Shown: positions 73-8,194 of the stretch, in pieces
Layout: every line of letters begins with the position of its first letter
Position numbering within the stretch: the first letter of the stretch is position 1
Assembly (NCBI GenBank): GCA_025774865.1
Contig: JALGZO010000446.1
Coordinates: 1 to 8,194 of the forward strand
Length of the DNA stretch: 8,194 nucleotides
Direction: 5' to 3'
DNA from: a bacterium
Lineage (GTDB): Bacteria; ARS69
The notes under the pieces: model-generated
What the model was told of the DNA's origin: nothing
The model's database searches: none
What the model saw: the letters and a program-made list of their open reading frames with translations, nothing else
Made by a program: the position numbers and the translations under genes

Positions 73-154
73 GTCCCGTTCGCTAAAGCGGCTGCGGCCG
101 GAGACCGTTCATTAGGGCGCGAATCCCGTCCCGCCCGTGGTCACGCGGTCGGAT

Positions 155-161
155 GGAAAGG
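155..161 (+). promoter_or_regulatory. Shine-Dalgarno that decides the kinase start
   Basis: The purine run GGAAAGG lies six bases before the ATG at 168. The alternative in-frame ATG at 153 overlaps this run and has only GCGGTCGG in front of it, a poor ribosome binding site. This favours 168 as the start and makes the first residues MDRCRILVVEDED, which begins the receiver domain at the usual distance. Confidence 0.6.
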
Positions 162-167
162 TCGTTT

Positions 168-2279
168 ATGGATCGCTGCCGCATCCTCGTGGTGGAAGAC
201 GAGGACACGATCGCCCACATCCTCCAAGCCGTCCTCGAAGATCACGAGTGTGAGGTCCACATCGCGAGAACGGCCGAAGACGGGCTCGCGCAAGTCAAGC
301 GGATGTCCTTTGATGTCGCGTTGCTGGACATCGTCCTCCCGGGGATGAATGGCCTTCAGCTCCTCACGAAGATCCGCGAGGAGCGTCCCGACACGGAAGT
401 CTTGATGATGACGAGCCACGCCTCGGTCGAGACGGTCGTGGAGGCGATCCACCACGGGGCCTACGACTACATTCGGAAGCCGTTTCAGGACGTCGAAGAG
501 GTGTGGATCAATGTCCAGAGGGCGATCGAGAAGAAGCGGCTCACCGAGGCCAATCGCTCCCTGATCGTGAATCAGGAGCGGCAGAACCAAGAGCTCGGAG
601 CCTCGGTGAAGCGGCTCTCGTCGTTGATCGAAGCGGGTCGCGCCATGAGCGAGTTCACGTCCCTATCGAAGCTCCTCGACTTCTTCACCGGTCTCGTCGC
701 GAAGGAGCTCGACGTAGAACGAGCCTCTCTCATGCTGCTCGACGACGCGGGTGAAGAGCTCCGGATCGCGGCCGCGCGGGGGCTCGGCGGCCTGGAGCTG
801 GAGAAGATCCGGGTGAAGGTGGGAGAGGGTGTCGCGGGGCGGGTCGCGCGGACCGGTCAGCACATCCTCGTGACCGACGCCAGCTCCGATGCTCGTGCGC
901 GGAAGAGCGCGAATCCGAAGCTCTCGGACTCGTTCATCTCGGCGCCCATCGTGCTGAGCATGCCGATCAAGTCGGCCGAGAAAGTCTCGGGGGTGATCAA
1001 CGTCACGAACCGGATTTCCGGAGTCCCCTTCGACGAAGAGGACGTGGCCTATCTGGCGGGCCTCGCCGGACAGCTCGCGGTCGCCGTCGAGCGGGCGCGG
1101 CACTTCGACGACTTGCAGCGAGCCTACGAGTCCTTGAAGGCGGCGCAGGAGCAGCTCGTGTTCGCAGAGCGACTGAAAGCGATCGGGCAGATGGCTGCGG
1201 GCGTCGCCCACGACTTCAACAACTCGCTCAGTGTGATCCTCGGACGCGCGCAGCTCGTGATTCGACGGATCGATCACGAACCGAGCAACCTCGCGGACAT
1301 TCGAGGCGACCTCGAGGCGATCGAGAAGATCTCTCTACAGGGTGCGGAAACGGTGAAGCGCGTCCAGGAGTACACGCGGATCCGAAAGGACCTGCCGCAC
1401 TCGAAGGTGGACCTGAACGTCGTCGTGCGGGAAGCGGTCGAGATGACGCGCCCCAAATGGAGCGAAGCGAGCAAGGCACAAGGTCGCCGGATCGAGATTC
1501 AGCTCGAGCTGAACGAAATGCCGTACGTCTCCGGCAACCTCTACGAGCTGACCCAGGTCGTCGGGAACTTGATCTTCAACTCCGTCGAGGCCATGCCGAA
1601 CGGCGGGGCCATCCAGTTTCGCACGTACTTCGAGGAGGACACGGTCTGCCTGGAAGTGCGCGACAGCGGCGTGGGCATGGACGAGGAGACGACCTCACGC
1701 CTCTTCGAGCCGTTCTACACCACGAAGGAGACCGGTCAGGGACTGGGGACGAGCATCATCTACGGAATCGTCTCCCGTCATCTCGGCGAGGTGGTCGTCG
1801 ACAGCGCGCCGGAGGACGGCACGAGGGTGACGATCAAGCTCCCGCGCCTGCTGGGGCACGAGCCCACGGCGTCCGCCGCGGACGTCACGGAAGCGGAGGA
1901 GACGAAGGCCAACACCATTCTTCTCGTGGATGACGAAGACATGGTTCGCGAGACCTACGGGACCGCGCTCGCTCTGAGCGGCCACAAGGTCGCGACGGCC
2001 GCCTCGGGAAACGAGGCGCTCGAGGCGCTGGCCAAGGGCTCGTTCGATCTCATGATCACCGACCTCAGCATGGAGGGCATGTCGGGGCTGGAGCTTTCTG
2101 AACGGGTCCGGAAGACGAACTCCGTCATGCCGATCATCCTGCTCAGCGGTTGGGCGATCCAGCAGGACGAGGCGCAAGTGACCGAGGCCGGGATCAACCG
2201 GGTTCTCGCGAAGCCCTGCCCGATCGAAAGGCTCCTCGCGGCGGTGGGCGACATCGGCACCTCTCCCGTCGCGACCTGA
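168..2279 (+). CDS. Soluble hybrid histidine kinase (REC-GAF-HisKA-HATPase-REC)
   Basis: This is a 703-residue signalling protein with two receivers and one kinase core; no transmembrane segment is visible, so it should be cytosolic. Residues are counted from the ATG at 168; an ATG at 153 would add five. Receiver 1 (about 4-115) has acidic D11, phospho-acceptor D54 in LLDIVLPGMNG, T82 and K104. A charged helical linker (about 118-160) leads to a GAF domain (about 160-310). The dimerisation helix carries phosphorylatable H348 in VAHDFNNSLS, the HDFNN subtype shared with NtrB-like kinases. The ATPase has N467 and N471 (N box), DSGVG around D499, LFEPFYTTK, and GQGLGTS where many relatives have GxGLGL. 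Receiver 2 (about 583-700) has D588, D589, D632, S660 and K682. All residues needed for phosphotransfer are present. It has no DNA-binding output, so the signal should pass to an Hpt protein or another regulator not in this window. The architecture call is firm; the stimulus and target are unknown. Confidence 0.95.
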   Translation: MDRCRILVVEDEDTIAHILQAVLEDHECEVHIARTAEDGLAQVKRMSFDVALLDIVLPGMNGLQLLTKIREERPDTEVLMMTSHASVETVVEAIHHGAYDYIRKPFQDVEEVWINVQRAIEKKRLTEANRSLIVNQERQNQELGASVKRLSSLIEAGRAMSEFTSLSKLLDFFTGLVAKELDVERASLMLLDDAGEELRIAAARGLGGLELEKIRVKVGEGVAGRVARTGQHILVTDASSDARARKSANPKLSDSFISAPIVLSMPIKSAEKVSGVINVTNRISGVPFDEEDVAYLAGLAGQLAVAVERARHFDDLQRAYESLKAAQEQLVFAERLKAIGQMAAGVAHDFNNSLSVILGRAQLVIRRIDHEPSNLADIRGDLEAIEKISLQGAETVKRVQEYTRIRKDLPHSKVDLNVVVREAVEMTRPKWSEASKAQGRRIEIQLELNEMPYVSGNLYELTQVVGNLIFNSVEAMPNGGAIQFRTYFEEDTVCLEVRDSGVGMDEETTSRLFEPFYTTKETGQGLGTSIIYGIVSRHLGEVVVDSAPEDGTRVTIKLPRLLGHEPTASAADVTEAEETKANTILLVDDEDMVRETYGTALALSGHKVATAASGNEALEALAKGSFDLMITDLSMEGMSGLELSERVRKTNSVMPIILLSGWAIQQDEAQVTEAGINRVLAKPCPIERLLAAVGDIGTSPVAT

Positions 2280-2700: not shown

Positions 2701-3279
2701 ATGCAACCCCGCAGTCACCCGAGCCACGGGCGGCGTCGGCTCACTCGGCCGGCGAGCTTGGCGCTCGCGATGCTTCTGGCGGCGGTACCGCTCCGCGCCA
2801 ACGCGGCGGACAACACCGCCGTCGGCGACATCGCCGGGATCGACGCAGATCTCGGCGACTCCAACACCTTCACCCTGAACGCGATGACGCTCGCGCTCGT
2901 GAAGACCGCGTTTCGCGGCGGTACCGAGCTCACGAGCGGCGCCACTCTGCCTCGCGGCACGCTGGTGCAGTTCATGGTCTACATCGACAACCCGACCGGC
3001 GTCTCCGTCACCGACGTGAACGTTTCCGACGTCCTGGACCCCGGTTTCAGCTACCAGGTGAGCTCGATCAAGGTGGACAACACCGCGGCGACCGGTTCGA
3101 CACCCGCGGACATCTACCTGGCCGTGAGCGCGGCCGCGACGGTCACCGACGCGAACGACGGCGACGTCGCCGGCATTTCCGGAACGACGATCACCGCCGG
3201 TTCGACCGGTGGCAACGGTCAGCTCGACATCGCCGCGAACGCCGTGTGGGCGATCCTGTTCGACGTAACGGTTCAGTAG
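2701..3279 (+). CDS. Small secreted DUF11-like protein, first paralog
   Basis: This is a 192-residue exported protein. The N-terminus is arginine-rich (RRR at 11-13), followed by a hydrophobic stretch (about 18-30, LALAMLLAAV) and a likely signal peptidase I site after A35 (ANA-ADN). The mature part begins with a Gly/Asp-rich stretch (41-55), then FTLNAMTLALVKTA (57-70) and a beta-sandwich-like core around VQFMVYIDNPTG (89-100) and VSVTDVNVSDVLDPGF (101-116). The segment with a hydrophobic strand, an N-P or D-N-P turn and V-T-D-V-x-V-x-D is typical of DUF11, an Ig-like domain of surface and envelope proteins. The whole protein is about one such domain, with no membrane anchor after the signal and no lipobox. 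The start is set by the strong Shine-Dalgarno at 2689. It is followed 47 bases later by a paralog and then by a giant outer-membrane-type protein, so it is probably a periplasmic or surface partner of that protein. No enzyme motif is visible, and its exact role is unknown. Confidence 0.85.
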   Translation: MQPRSHPSHGRRRLTRPASLALAMLLAAVPLRANAADNTAVGDIAGIDADLGDSNTFTLNAMTLALVKTAFRGGTELTSGATLPRGTLVQFMVYIDNPTGVSVTDVNVSDVLDPGFSYQVSSIKVDNTAATGSTPADIYLAVSAAATVTDANDGDVAGISGTTITAGSTGGNGQLDIAANAVWAILFDVTVQ

Positions 3280-3326
3280 GAAGCGCGACGCCTTCAAGGG
3301 CGGCGCGCTTTCGGGTGATACGAGGA

Positions 3327-3932
3327 ATGATTCGAGATCGGCTCGGAATCTTGTGCTGGCTGGCCCTGATCACGTGTACGGAGATCTTTCCGCCTGGATC
3401 GGCCTTCGGCGCCACGAACTCGGCGACCGGGGGGATCGGCGGACTGAACAACGGCACGCTGATCGACGGTGATGGCACGGGGGCAGCCCGGTTCACGATC
3501 AATTCGGTGACGCTCGCGCTGATCAAGCAGGCGAGGGACACCGGTGGCCTCGTGCTGCCAGACGGAGCCGACGTCTATCCCGGTCAAGAGATCTACTTCG
3601 TTCTGTACGTCGACAACCCCACGGCGTTCGTGACCGACGACATCCGGATCTCCGACGCCATCGACGAGTCTCAATTCACCTACGTCACGGACACCCTCGA
3701 GGAGGCGCTCGTCCCGAGCGGCTCCGACGACGGGACGATTTGGGCGGGTCCGTGGACTCCTCTCACCGACCAGCTGGGAGCGCCGGACGACCCGGCGTCC
3801 ATTCTGGATACCGGTGGTCCCTCCTCGCCGGATCTGATCACGGTGGGGATGGAGACGGGCCAGGTGAACCAACGTTTCACTCTGCCCGGCGGCTCCCTGG
3901 GAGCGGTCCGGTTCCGGGTGCGGGTGAATTGA
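3327..3932 (+). CDS. Small secreted DUF11-like protein, second paralog
   Basis: This 201-residue protein is paralogous to the preceding product. It has a signal peptide (MIRDR, a hydrophobic run at about 7-18, probable cleavage after G28 in SAFG-ATN). The mature N-terminus has a Gly/Asp-rich stretch (35-51) with LIDGDGTG at 45-52, then FTINSVTLALIKQA (56-69) and IYFVLYVDNPTA (89-100), which match FTLNAMTLALVKTA and VQFMVYIDNPTG of its neighbour at almost the same positions. A longer acidic loop (about 122-175, with several Asp and Pro) distinguishes it. The C-terminus ends in a beta strand, VRFRVRVN. The start is uncertain: the ATG at 3327 has GAGGA directly against it, too close for a normal ribosome site, and an in-frame GTG at 3315 would add four residues. 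The stop TGA (3930-3932) is followed after one base by the next ATG, so it is almost certainly co-translated with the giant gene. No catalytic motif is seen; a structural or accessory envelope role is inferred. Confidence 0.85.
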   Translation: MIRDRLGILCWLALITCTEIFPPGSAFGATNSATGGIGGLNNGTLIDGDGTGAARFTINSVTLALIKQARDTGGLVLPDGADVYPGQEIYFVLYVDNPTAFVTDDIRISDAIDESQFTYVTDTLEEALVPSGSDDGTIWAGPWTPLTDQLGAPDDPASILDTGGPSSPDLITVGMETGQVNQRFTLPGGSLGAVRFRVRVN

Positions 3933-3933
3933 G

Positions 3934-6900
3934 ATGAGATTCCTCCGCCGATCGGCGCCGACTCGACGAAGCACCCGCGGGAGACCGGGGGGGCAACCGA
4001 CGACGAGATTCGTCGGATGCCTCCTGATCCTGCTCGGGGTCGCGGCGTCCGGAGGTCGAGCCTCGGCTCAGACGATCGAGAACGTCGCGGACGGGACCGC
4101 CAACGGCGTCGCGCTCGACGCCGCCGCGGCGCGGGTCACTCTGACCCGCTTGTCCTCCGTCGCGAGCGACGCGATCGCGGAGATCTCGCCGAACGCAGTA
4201 ACCACGGGGAGCCGGGACAACGCGTTCGTGTACGACATCCGGCCGACCCTGAACGCGGGCGACACGGGTCCGGCCCGGGTGGAGATCACGGCGCCGCCCG
4301 GCTATTCGAACCTCCGGGTCACGGACGTCTTGGTGGGCGGTACGCCTCTCGGGCCGAACTGCTCGAGTCCCGGCGCCGGGGAGTACTGTGTCACGACGGC
4401 GGGACAGACGTTGACCGTCGCGCTCGGAAGCCGGGTCACGACGAGCCAGACGCGTGTCACCGTGCGGTTCACGGCCGACGCGCCGAGCGCCGCCGGCACC
4501 GCGGACTTCACCGCGGCGCTGAGCGACGGCCCGCTGACGCTGGCCGCGCGAGCCGGTGACGCGAACGGAGACGCCTCCGACGCCAACAGCACGACAGTGG
4601 AGGTGTTCGCGAGTCAGGGGGTGGTGCTGAGCCTCGCGAAGAGCGCCGACCGCGACCAGGCCGTCGTCGGCGAGCCGGTCGTCTATCTCGCCGAGATCCG
4701 CAACCTCGGCGGCGGAGACGTCACGGACGTCCGGCTGGAAGACACGATCCCCCCGAATTTCAAGTACATCACCGGCTCGGCGCGGATGAACGGACGCCCG
4801 GTCGCCGATCCCTCGGGCGTGCGGACGCTCCACTTCGCGATCGGAACGGTTCCCGCCTTCGTCGACGAAAACGGAAACGGGACGGCCGATCCCCGCGAAG
4901 CCGGCCATCTGGCGTTGAGCTACCAGGTCGTCGTCGGGGCCGGGGCCAGGCCCGGTGAATACCGGAGCTCGGGCGTGGCCAAGGACCTCTGCGATGTCTG
5001 CGTCATCTCGAACGTGGCCGAGGTCGACGTGGACGTGCGACTCGACGAGCTTCTCGATCTCGGCCTCGTCATCGGCAAGGTGTTCGAGGATCGCGATCGT
5101 GACGGCTGGCAGGGCTCGGAGGAGCCGGGAGTCGCGAACGCCGTCGTCGCGCTCGACGACGGAGCGTACGCGATCACCGACGAGCACGGTCGCTACCACC
5201 TTCCCGCGGTGGTCCCGGGACAACGCTTGGTCAAGCTCGACCTGGCGGCCCTCGGCAGTGGCGCGGTCGCGACGACGGAATCGAGCCGGATCCTCACGCT
5301 GACGCCCGGAATCGCGGCCAAGGCGGACTTCGGCGTCGAACTCGTACGGGTCCCGGAGACGATCGGGACTCCTCCGCGGTCGGGCGTGGCGATGACCGGG
5401 CTGCCCGAGGATCCACTGGTCCTGGTTCTCGGGAGTGCGGAAACGCTGTCCGTTCTCGTGAACGGCGATCAGATCCGGCTCCCGTCTGGGAACGTTCGAC
5501 TGACCGTCGGTGACTTCGAGGAAGTGGTCCACGTCACGGACGAAGGCCTCGTGGATCCCGTCCGGTTCACGTTCGACGTCGACTTCCGAGATAACGTCGG
5601 GGACTGGAAGCTGAGCGTGATGAACAGTCGAGACGCAGTCGTTCACTCGGTCGAAGGCGGGAACGATCTCCCTCACTTCCTCACGTGGGATGGGACGACG
5701 AATGACGGCCGGCTCGTGACGGTGGGGGAGGTCTATCACTACCGCCTCGAAGTCGTGACTCGCGACAATATCCACTGGAAGAGCCCTCGGCGGCTCTTTG
5801 CCGTGAATCGCCGGTCCTTCATCTCGATGCGTCTCACCGGTGATGCGTTCCAGTCGAACGCCGACGTGTTGAGTCCGTTGGCCCGTCAGACCCTCCGCGA
5901 AGCGGGAACGGTGCTACGTCGATTCCCGGAGGAGAAGATCGTCATCGAGGGACACACGGACTCGTCGGGTCCCCGCGAGCACAACCTGGAGCTCTCGCGC
6001 CGGCGAGCCCAGGCCGCGAAGACGTTCCTGACCGAGGAGATGGGAATTCCCTCGGAGCGATTCACTCTCCGCTGGTTCGGCGAGGACCGTCCGGTCGCCT
6101 CGGAGAACGATCCGGGTGGAGCGGCTCTGAACCGCCGGGTGGTGATTCGTGCGGACATGGAGGAAGTCCAGCGTACGAACGTGACGGAGGGGTACTGGTC
6201 GGAGCCGAAGGTGGAGGTCAACGGCCAGTCGGTTCCGATCGGAAAGAGCGGTCGCTTCTCCACCAGTCTGGATGGATCGGAGACCGACGAAGTCGTCGTC
6301 GTCGTCACGAGCCCCGAAGGTCGCACTGCCGCGGCGGGTCTGCGACTTCCCGAGCTGGAGATTCTGGAGCCGGTGGGCGAGCACCGGATTCCTTTCGGGG
6401 AGTCTCGCGGCGGACTCGCGGTCTCCGAGCGCGATGAGCGCGGCGCGTTCGCAGCCACGGCGTCGGTCGTGGGTCGCACCGATCCCGGGGGCACCGTCGA
6501 GCTCGCCGGCGAGCCCGTGCCGACAAGGCCCGACGGGACGTTCGCAACGGTGGTGGAGCTGTCGGTCGGGCACAACCCGTTCGGGGTCGTGGCCCGGAGC
6601 CGGCAGGGTTTCCGCCGCGTCGTGAATCTGGACGTCCGCGTATCGGACCGGGACGAGGACGGCGAGATCATCATCGACGCCGACGTGATTCCGAATCTCA
6701 CCGTGTTCTGGCCGCCGTCGGATGAGCCGTTGCGAACCGCGAAGCTCCGGCTTACGGGGAGCACCGATCCCGAGAACGAGATCCAGGTGAACGGAACGCG
6801 GTGGGAAGTGGACGGCGACGGATCCTTCGTGGGGCTCGTGGAGATGCCGGTGGGAACGAGCCGAATCGAGGTGGTCGTCAGGGATCCGCAGGGTCGTAGA

Positions 6901-8194
6901 GGACGGCTCGAGCGAGAGTACGAGGTCGCCGAGAATCAGCTCTTCCTGGTGGCGATCGCGGACGGAATCGTCGGTCAGCTTCACGGCGACGGTTACCTCG
7001 AGGGCGCGGGCCTGGACGAGGCCGACGAGCTCTACGCGACCGGACGCGTGAGCTACTACCTGCGCGGAATGGTCCTCGGCAAATATCTCGTCAAGTCGGC
7101 GTTCGACTCGGGCGCTCGCGACATCGCACCGATCTTCGGCGATCTGGACGAAATCGAGACCCAGCGGCTCGTGACGAACCTCGATCCCGACAAGTTCTAT
7201 CCGGTGTACGGCGACGAGAGCACCGTGGGTTGGGACGCCGAGACACTCGGACGCTTCTACCTGGCCGTCGACGCCGCGGAGTGGAGCGTTCTCGTCGGAA
7301 ACTATCCGGTCACATTGACCGACACGGAGCTTTCCCAGTACCAGCGCACACTCTACGGTGGGAAGGCCGTCTACCAGCGCGCATCCCGCGAACGAGGCGA
7401 ACCCCCCGACACCGCGGTTCTCGTGTTCGGAGCCGAACTCGAGCAGGTCCGCGTCCGCGACGAGCTTCGCGCGACGGGAGGATCGCTCTACTTCCTCAGC
7501 CACCCGGACGTCGTCGAGGGCAGCGAGCAGGTCACGATCGTCGTGCGAGACAAGGTCACCGGCCTCGAGCTCAGTCGTCGGATCCAGCGGCGGAACTCGG
7601 ACTACTCGATCAAGTACGAGGAAGGCCGCGTCCTCTTCCACCGACCGATCTCGAGCGTCGATCTCGACGACATGGTCGTCGACCCCGACATCCTCTCGGG
7701 GAATCCGGTCACGATTCTGGTCGACTACGAGATCTTCGCCGACTCGTTCGAGGAGACGGCGGCTGGCGTCCGCGTCAAGCAGCGACTGGGGAGCCGCGTG
7801 ACCATCGGAGGCACGTACCTCGACGATCATCCGCAGGCGGGGCCCTACGAGCTCGCCGGCGTCGACGCCGAAGTGGAGACGCATGGCTCTCGACTCGTGG
7901 GCGAGTACGCGCAGAGCGAAGGCACCGAAGCGCTCCTCTTCCGAAGCGAGGACGGTGGACTCTCGTACGCTCCGACCGCCGCCGGCATCGAGCTCGACGG
8001 ATCAGCGTGGCGCGCCGCGGCCGAGCTCGACATCGGTCGACTTTGGGGTGACGAAGGGCGGCTCCGCGTGAGGGGCTATCACAAGAACCTCGACGCCGGG
8101 TTCCTTTCGGCCGGGAGCTTTCTGGAGCGCGGACTGAGGCGGTCCGGAGCCTCGGCGTCGTTCCTCCTGAGCGACGCGAGCCGTCTCATGGTGA
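3934..8194 (+). CDS. Giant exported DUF11/SdrD-B/OmpA envelope protein (3' end outside window)
   Basis: An open frame of 1420 codons runs off the window with no stop. A long arginine-rich N-terminus precedes a hydrophobic signal (30-38) with likely cleavage after A45 (ASA-QT). Domains in order are: an Ig-like domain (about 46-225); DUF11 (230-365); an SdrD-B/prealbumin-like domain (378-445) with a DxDxDG loop (386-391); a FlgD-like Ig domain (545-625) with WDG at 585; OmpA-like (630-740); three Ig-like repeats (about 758-800, 843-895, 932-990); and a segment with KFYPVYGDEST (1087-1097) and YQRTLYGGKAVYQ. After that come GGSLYFLSHPDVVEGSEQV and, from about 1285, alternating strands that look like the start of a beta-barrel. 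The OmpA domain keeps GHTD (D676) and R691 fifteen residues later, the pair that binds diaminopimelate in known OmpA proteins, plus NRRV at 733. The start codon follows the upstream stop by one base with only a weak Shine-Dalgarno, suggesting translational coupling. The protein probably ties the outer membrane to peptidoglycan and displays or guides Ig-like partners. The domain calls are strong; the barrel and function are inferred. Confidence 0.9.
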   Translation, partial: MRFLRRSAPTRRSTRGRPGGQPTTRFVGCLLILLGVAASGGRASAQTIENVADGTANGVALDAAAARVTLTRLSSVASDAIAEISPNAVTTGSRDNAFVYDIRPTLNAGDTGPARVEITAPPGYSNLRVTDVLVGGTPLGPNCSSPGAGEYCVTTAGQTLTVALGSRVTTSQTRVTVRFTADAPSAAGTADFTAALSDGPLTLAARAGDANGDASDANSTTVEVFASQGVVLSLAKSADRDQAVVGEPVVYLAEIRNLGGGDVTDVRLEDTIPPNFKYITGSARMNGRPVADPSGVRTLHFAIGTVPAFVDENGNGTADPREAGHLALSYQVVVGAGARPGEYRSSGVAKDLCDVCVISNVAEVDVDVRLDELLDLGLVIGKVFEDRDRDGWQGSEEPGVANAVVALDDGAYAITDEHGRYHLPAVVPGQRLVKLDLAALGSGAVATTESSRILTLTPGIAAKADFGVELVRVPETIGTPPRSGVAMTGLPEDPLVLVLGSAETLSVLVNGDQIRLPSGNVRLTVGDFEEVVHVTDEGLVDPVRFTFDVDFRDNVGDWKLSVMNSRDAVVHSVEGGNDLPHFLTWDGTTNDGRLVTVGEVYHYRLEVVTRDNIHWKSPRRLFAVNRRSFISMRLTGDAFQSNADVLSPLARQTLREAGTVLRRFPEEKIVIEGHTDSSGPREHNLELSRRRAQAAKTFLTEEMGIPSERFTLRWFGEDRPVASENDPGGAALNRRVVIRADMEEVQRTNVTEGYWSEPKVEVNGQSVPIGKSGRFSTSLDGSETDEVVVVVTSPEGRTAAAGLRLPELEILEPVGEHRIPFGESRGGLAVSERDERGAFAATASVVGRTDPGGTVELAGEPVPTRPDGTFATVVELSVGHNPFGVVARSRQGFRRVVNLDVRVSDRDEDGEIIIDADVIPNLTVFWPPSDEPLRTAKLRLTGSTDPENEIQVNGTRWEVDGDGSFVGLVEMPVGTSRIEVVVRDPQGRRGRLEREYEVAENQLFLVAIADGIVGQLHGDGYLEGAGLDEADELYATGRVSYYLRGMVLGKYLVKSAFDSGARDIAPIFGDLDEIETQRLVTNLDPDKFYPVYGDESTVGWDAETLGRFYLAVDAAEWSVLVGNYPVTLTDTELSQYQRTLYGGKAVYQRASRERGEPPDTAVLVFGAELEQVRVRDELRATGGSLYFLSHPDVVEGSEQVTIVVRDKVTGLELSRRIQRRNSDYSIKYEEGRVLFHRPISSVDLDDMVVDPDILSGNPVTILVDYEIFADSFEETAAGVRVKQRLGSRVTIGGTYLDDHPQAGPYELAGVDAEVETHGSRLVGEYAQSEGTEALLFRSEDGGLSYAPTAAGIELDGSAWRAAAELDIGRLWGDEGRLRVRGYHKNLDAGFLSAGSFLERGLRRSGASASFLLSDASRLMV

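Follow-up and report, generated by a model that had tools for sequence, protein, structure and literature searches.

DUF11 domains have been described in the stalks of fibrillar adhesins (PMC9210967) and as isopeptide-forming domains (PMC12617251). In the solved DUF11, or CLIPPER, domain 9IFR, Lys715 is bonded to Asn806 in the penultimate strand, with Asp748 as the presumed catalyst (PMC12617251). The three-gene module described here resembles such stalks (PF01345; 9IFR, PMC12617251) in belonging to the same family, in having a first-strand lysine and a catalytic aspartate at matching places, and in having an asparagine in the penultimate strand. Known CLIPPER domains are, however, single chains with an intramolecular bond, whereas the asparagine-bearing last hairpin of the module sits on the next gene product.

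In outline, the module also resembles the chaperone-usher pili (type 1 and P pili), with an N-terminal donor, an incomplete Ig-like subunit, a tip combining adhesin and acceptor, and a membrane anchor. It differs from them in that the putative donor is a hairpin rather than a single strand, the domain family is another one, no usher match is found, and the OmpA-barrel anchor would itself donate the last hairpin. Reading the genes of four operons (L036, L038, L083 and L084), we saw none for a PapD-like chaperone. The archaeal threads of Saci_0406 (PMC9715654) are likewise donor-strand fibres with reported intermolecular isopeptide bonds and without chaperone or sortase, but they occur in Archaea only, consist of a single repeated subunit, form their bond via the N-terminal amine two subunits away and have no OmpA or barrel anchor. 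SpyTag/SpyCatcher and DogTag/DogCatcher are split isopeptide domains that link two chains covalently without an enzyme; these were engineered from one protein, whereas the split in the module would be natural. F-ENA endospore appendages (PMC11952670) share N-terminal hook docking, an anchor protein and a tip fibrillum, and one of their anchors has DUF11 domains, but they are DUF4183 trimers on spores of Gram-positive bacteria. A full-text literature search, subscription papers and preprints apart, found nothing on gene-split DUF11 domains or on a family of giant DUF11-OmpA-barrel proteins.

The window, meaning the whole stretch of DNA analysed (8,194 nt), is the entire contig C450 of a fragmented genome. 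It encodes two small secreted proteins, small1 and small2, and the 5' part of a giant protein whose gene runs past the contig end. Positions 1-72 hold the C-terminal piece of an apparent short-chain dehydrogenase gene, cut by the contig start. The features are as follows.

153..2279, forward strand: hybrid kinase, REC-GAF-HisKA-HATPase-REC (Pfam).
2701..3279, forward strand: small1, shaft-like secreted subunit, 192 aa (ORF; paralog of small2).
2806..2880, forward strand: small1 hairpin at the mature N-terminus, residues 36-60, ADNTAVGDIAGIDADLGDSNTFTLN, proposed donor with Asn38.
2881..3276, forward strand: small1 unfinished DUF11-like domain, proposed acceptor, with Lys68 and Asp110, ending ..WAILFDVTVQ.
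3327..3932, forward strand: small2, adaptor-like secreted subunit, 201 aa (ORF).
3411..3506, forward strand: small2 N-terminal hairpin, residues 29-60, ATNSATGG...FTINS, proposed donor with Asn31.
3507..3929, forward strand: small2 unfinished DUF11-like domain, proposed acceptor, with Lys67 and Asp110, ending ..AVRFRVRVN.
3934..8194, forward strand: giant anchor gene, 5' part, 1420 codons (rest on contig C437).
4069..4146, forward strand: giant N-terminal hairpin, residues 46-71, QTIENVADGTANGVALDAAAARVTLT, proposed last donor with Asn50.
4627..5043, forward strand: complete second DUF11 domain of the giant, containing Lys236, Asp270 and a CxxC motif (Pfam, 29.3 bits).
5848..6135, forward strand: giant OmpA peptidoglycan-binding domain (PF00691, 69 bits).
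6691..6897, forward strand: giant Glucodextran_B (Ig-like) domain, best of three matches (Pfam).
6931..7878, forward strand: most conserved core of the giant, NLDPDKFYPVYGD..., immediately ahead of the barrel (alignment).
7879..8194, forward strand: start of the giant's predicted C-terminal beta-barrel, remainder on C437 (AF2 of the L019 homolog).

The three genes of the module run in one direction and, as the preliminary description had stated, the last two are 1 nt apart (TGA g ATG); small1 and small2 are separated by 47 nt. By-eye inspection identified a signal peptide at the N-terminus of all three products. Contig C437 (L024, minus strand) overlaps the end of C450 by 121 nt with 2 mismatches and completes the giant gene. 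The joined protein has ~1872 aa and terminates in ...SVRGWFLRAQGRY, the last residue being aromatic. Its layout from N- to C-terminus is signal peptide, hairpin, DUF11-like domain, DUF11, SdrD_B-like domain, FlgD-type Ig, OmpA, Glucodextran_B Ig, FYPVYGD core and barrel. The DUF11 (29.3 bits), OmpA (69 bits) and Glucodextran_B Ig domains all score above the Pfam cut-offs, bearing out the DUF11, OmpA and Ig-like domains first read from the sequence. The AF2 model of the L019 homolog contains a confident large barrel, with ~26-30 strands counted from the strand list. Having an OmpA domain together with this predicted barrel, the giant can be classed as an OmpA-like peptidoglycan-binding outer-membrane protein. 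A CxxC motif (DLCDVC, window 4987-5010) lies near the end of its second DUF11 domain and recurs as CATC in L020 and CSTC in L044; the last strand of 9IFR has a comparable CTTC disulfide (PMC12617251). At L018, a single in-frame stop (892-897) breaks the giant ORF in that MAG contig.

The small proteins had been described as two DUF11-like paralogs. Searching the genome with small1 retrieved small2 at 38% identity (E=1.1e-11), and on this similarity we regard the two as true paralogs. The domain label held less well: Pfam DUF11 (PF01345) scores 15.8 bits on small1, below the cut-off of 24.6, and does not match small2. By the gathering score of 24.6 bits, we therefore call both proteins DUF11-like and non-members of PF01345. 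No solved structures matching the small-protein profile were found.

Related giants occur in MAGs with the labels Acidobacteria, Gammaproteobacteria, Muproteobacteria and Nitrospirae. For three of these MAGs, sampled relatives have them as well, and so do two of the four other genomes of the window's small phylum. The preliminary description had proposed a joint, usher-like assembly of small subunits and a large protein, a reading that giants generally lacking small upstream genes would contradict. Among window-type giants with visible upstream DNA, 9/10 have a small gene immediately 5' (the window, L025, L036/L019, L038, L042, L043, L046, L083 and L084); the matches were seeded with the giant core, so that these counts describe giants and not small genes generally, and they exclude L082, the giant of which is masked or truncated. 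The exception, L044, is a giant without a small gene and without an N-terminal hairpin; at its start are repeats that are homologous to the L043 and L036 tip proteins (E=6e-20). The pairing is not due to chance, because it recurs in Gammaproteobacteria- and Nitrospirae-labelled MAGs and in a second genome of the window's family. A distant clade with giants of ~2000 aa follows the same logic with different proteins, in the order smallA, B (353-420 aa), giant; canonical 'GTxIxNTAxVxY' hairpins occur on B and on the giant and are absent from smallA. Since 9/10 giants are paired and the distant clade has an analogous gene upstream, the joint assembly is well supported genetically, while the usher half of the analogy is not established: Pfam showed no usher family in the window part of the giant, and the predicted barrel is of a generic kind.

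Other giants are arranged differently. In one clade (L051-L068, L092), the giant starts at the OmpA part and is preceded by a separate protein of 1000-3600 aa, often with a 4-nt overlap, which has DUF11 repeats in several cases and often a 'CCYxLxIExExFWRRG'-type tail. This is a two-gene split of the same machine. The giants of L087, L088 and L090 have ~4000-5700 aa and very long N-terminal regions, with DUF11 repeats where visible; at L087 a small gene upstream was not seen, as if the stalk were built in.

In tandem DUF11 proteins, a domain ends '...vtVn..GtitNTAtVt...tvtV' and the next one starts 'adLsvtK'. The product of small1 starts with such a last hairpin (ADNTAVG...SNTFTLN), continues with LALVK and stops at ...AILFDVTVQ, ahead of the next hairpin. 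Alignment with two natural fusions from relatives in the window's family, L039 (501 aa) and L040 (751 aa), revealed that neither small1 nor small2 has the full strand set, both being without the last DUF11 hairpin (strands 8-9). From hairpin to first strand there are 2-4 residues in the small proteins, the same as in tandem DUF11 arrays. The fusions contain a complete Pfam DUF11 domain (profile 1-113 of 114) at residues 240-356 of L039 (E=6.5e-34) and 490-606 of L040 (E=2.5e-37), and the small-protein profile matches residues 317-501 and 565-751, respectively. In both fusions, the last hairpin of the DUF11 domain thus coincides with the N-terminal hairpin of the small-type part, and the chain terminates at the position where small1 does. 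An unfinished small-like domain also ends a protein with BNR/photosystem-assembly-like repeats (L037 5121-5813, genome G100), away from the giant locus.

When 460 N-termini were searched with a hairpin profile made from the small proteins only, the matches outside the training set were exclusively giants, those of L042 and L043 (E ~5e-8). The N-terminal hairpin is thus a portable module. Among 37 giants, a hairpin motif on the giant is associated with an unfinished domain directly upstream (16/17 vs 3/20; Fisher p=1.3e-6), by motif rules that were set after examples had been seen. Joining the two sides of a junction gave mixed results. In the distant clade, addition of the giant hairpin to B raised the Pfam DUF11 score from 28.0 to 33.3 bits in L069 and from 22.8 to 24.7 bits in L074 (now with a match that spans the junction), and joining smallA to B raised it from 23.0 to 26.9 bits; the match extends over the junction in 2/3 of these joins. 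For small1 of the window, addition of the next hairpin lowered the score from 15.8 to 13.1 bits. In the control, random N-termini equalled the real small1-small2 junction in 89/231 cases and the small2-giant junction in 20/231. Because random N-termini often score as well as the window junctions, much of the junction ranking mirrors the upstream end, and once controls are run the profile test has limited power in the window clade. The donor profile had no significant matches to internal DUF11 hairpins in the window clade, and the probable homology of the two is there one of position and motif, not of statistics. At L079 (12952-16360), two genes (798 and 337 aa) upstream of smallA form a further pair of unfinished end and hairpin, with the top junction score overall (22.5 bits).

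Several operons begin with a further gene. The order large secreted protein, small1, small2, giant is found in L036, L038, L083 and L084, with genes for a membrane protein, a kinase and a REC-GGDEF protein intervening between small1 and small2 in L036, and L043 has the order large protein, small, giant. In all five, the large upstream protein has a C-terminal unfinished domain with no hairpin before it. These tip candidates are large, variable and adhesin-like, with DUF2341 (at the N-terminus in L036 and L038), beta-helix or long repeats, and reach 2350 aa or more. An unfinished domain with no hairpin is what would be expected of a tip adhesin in a pilus layout. A search of the window's own genome, which is fragmented, turned up no tip gene. 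That genome does encode, after the kinase on C437, a secreted-looking large protein of at least 1192 aa (L024 3-3578).

We mapped the isopeptide residues from PMC12617251 and motif spacing, since 9IFR was not returned by the DUF11 structure queries. By motif, the lysine and aspartate of the triad lie in the unfinished domains (Lys68/Asp110 in small1, Lys67/Asp110 in small2) and its asparagine in the hairpin of the next gene (Asn31 of small2, Asn50 of the giant). Lysine and aspartate are both present in 24/25 unfinished domains, and both are gone in the remaining one. Most hairpins have the asparagine, which is missing in small2 of L084 and in the giant of L046. Intermolecular isopeptide bonding is plausible from these positions, though perhaps not universal. 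With Lys/Asp and Asn divided in this way between consecutive gene products, the predicted links would be covalent and sortase-free. We tentatively put forward an enzyme-free natural covalent fibre, in which split CLIPPER domains would exchange hairpins and form Lys-Asn bonds (small1 Lys68-small2 Asn31, small2 Lys67-giant Asn50). An adhesin on the Gram-negative outer membrane would thereby be assembled and anchored by a reaction of the SpyTag/SpyCatcher type.

We consider it probable that the module encodes a surface fibre whose subunits are joined through strand complementation between split DUF11 (CLIPPER) domains. A small subunit would be a DUF11-like domain without its last hairpin, strands 8-9 with the isopeptide asparagine, and would receive this hairpin from the mature N-terminus of the next subunit. 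The chain would run from the tip, which has an unfinished domain only, through small1, perhaps repeated, and small2 to the giant. As the membrane-proximal anchor, the giant would give the final hairpin and hold the chain via its OmpA domain (peptidoglycan) and its large C-terminal barrel (outer membrane). Export may proceed through the giant's own barrel, although this is a guess. Adhesion is the likely role of such a fibre.

An arrangement in which the small proteins are self-complete circular permutants, each folding its own hairpin back, with ordinary contacts or none to the giant or the surface, seems unlikely to us. It would suit the presence of hairpin and unfinished domain on one chain. 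An AF2 model of a chain reading through from small2 into the giant N-terminus at L019, where the two share a frame (TGA read as residue; mean pLDDT 46, 5-row alignment), speaks neither for nor against docking. The spacing of 2-4 residues is, however, that of tandem DUF11 arrays, where the hairpin belongs to the previous domain, as it does in the L039 and L040 fusions. Furthermore, the tips have the same unfinished domain and no hairpin, and the giants bear a hairpin though a different domain comes next. Donation of the missing hairpin by the next gene product is a better-supported mechanism than the usher analogy.

The remaining explanations concern the place of the giant. It could, together with the small proteins, be part of a periplasmic envelope scaffold or sensor that bridges the outer membrane and, at the inner membrane, the FecR-like Ig protein and the kinase. 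The domains ahead of OmpA would indeed be periplasmic unless exported via the barrel, and in many relatives the giant is followed by genes for a membrane-anchored Ig protein, a HAMP kinase and a REC-GGDEF protein. We nevertheless find this improbable: the tips are of the large, variable, adhesin-like sort typical of surface exposure, and giants without small genes can have DUF11 arrays of their own that run to thousands of residues and exceed what the periplasm can hold. Still less probable is that the giant acts as a genuine secretion pore of the usher type, exporting the small proteins while itself staying outside the fibre. The predicted L019 barrel is large and matches the FimD and PapC translocation domains at Z 16-18, but it matches iron-uptake receptors, MtrB and LptD equally well, and among the many outer-membrane barrels that it resembles (Z up to 20) none is singled out. 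A Pfam scan of the window part of the giant gave no usher family up to E=1, and an N-terminal hairpin of its own would be needless for a mere pore. As the barrel matches are generic, we rejected the usher or pore-only reading of the giant. Strand exchange between subunits of a surface fibre remains the reading we prefer.

The neighbourhood of the module is rich in signalling genes. The hybrid kinase at 153..2279 is a probable regulator, and its membership in the module is uncertain; this same REC-GAF hybrid kinase gene is also the immediate upstream neighbour in G002 (L025), a relative from the window's family. After the giant on C437 come a membrane-anchored protein and then a HAMP-type kinase. 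We read an apparent FecR-like region in the former, of which only the C-terminal Ig domain is above the Pfam cut-off. In most complete relatives, the module has a kinase gene and a REC-GGDEF gene as neighbours, and the GGEEF motif is intact in the REC-GGDEF proteins of L019, L020, L021, L045 and L046. Adjoining kinase and REC-GGDEF genes may control the module, and as a matter of neighbourhood they fit a function in c-di-GMP-linked adhesion.

The residue positions suggest that nature builds covalent fibres with split isopeptide domains, and the split pairs could yield new protein-ligation pairs. If the fibre reading is correct, several phyla would possess a strand-exchange DUF11 surface fibre with its own outer-membrane anchor and no recognised usher or sortase, and a function would be assigned to the giant DUF11-OmpA-barrel family.
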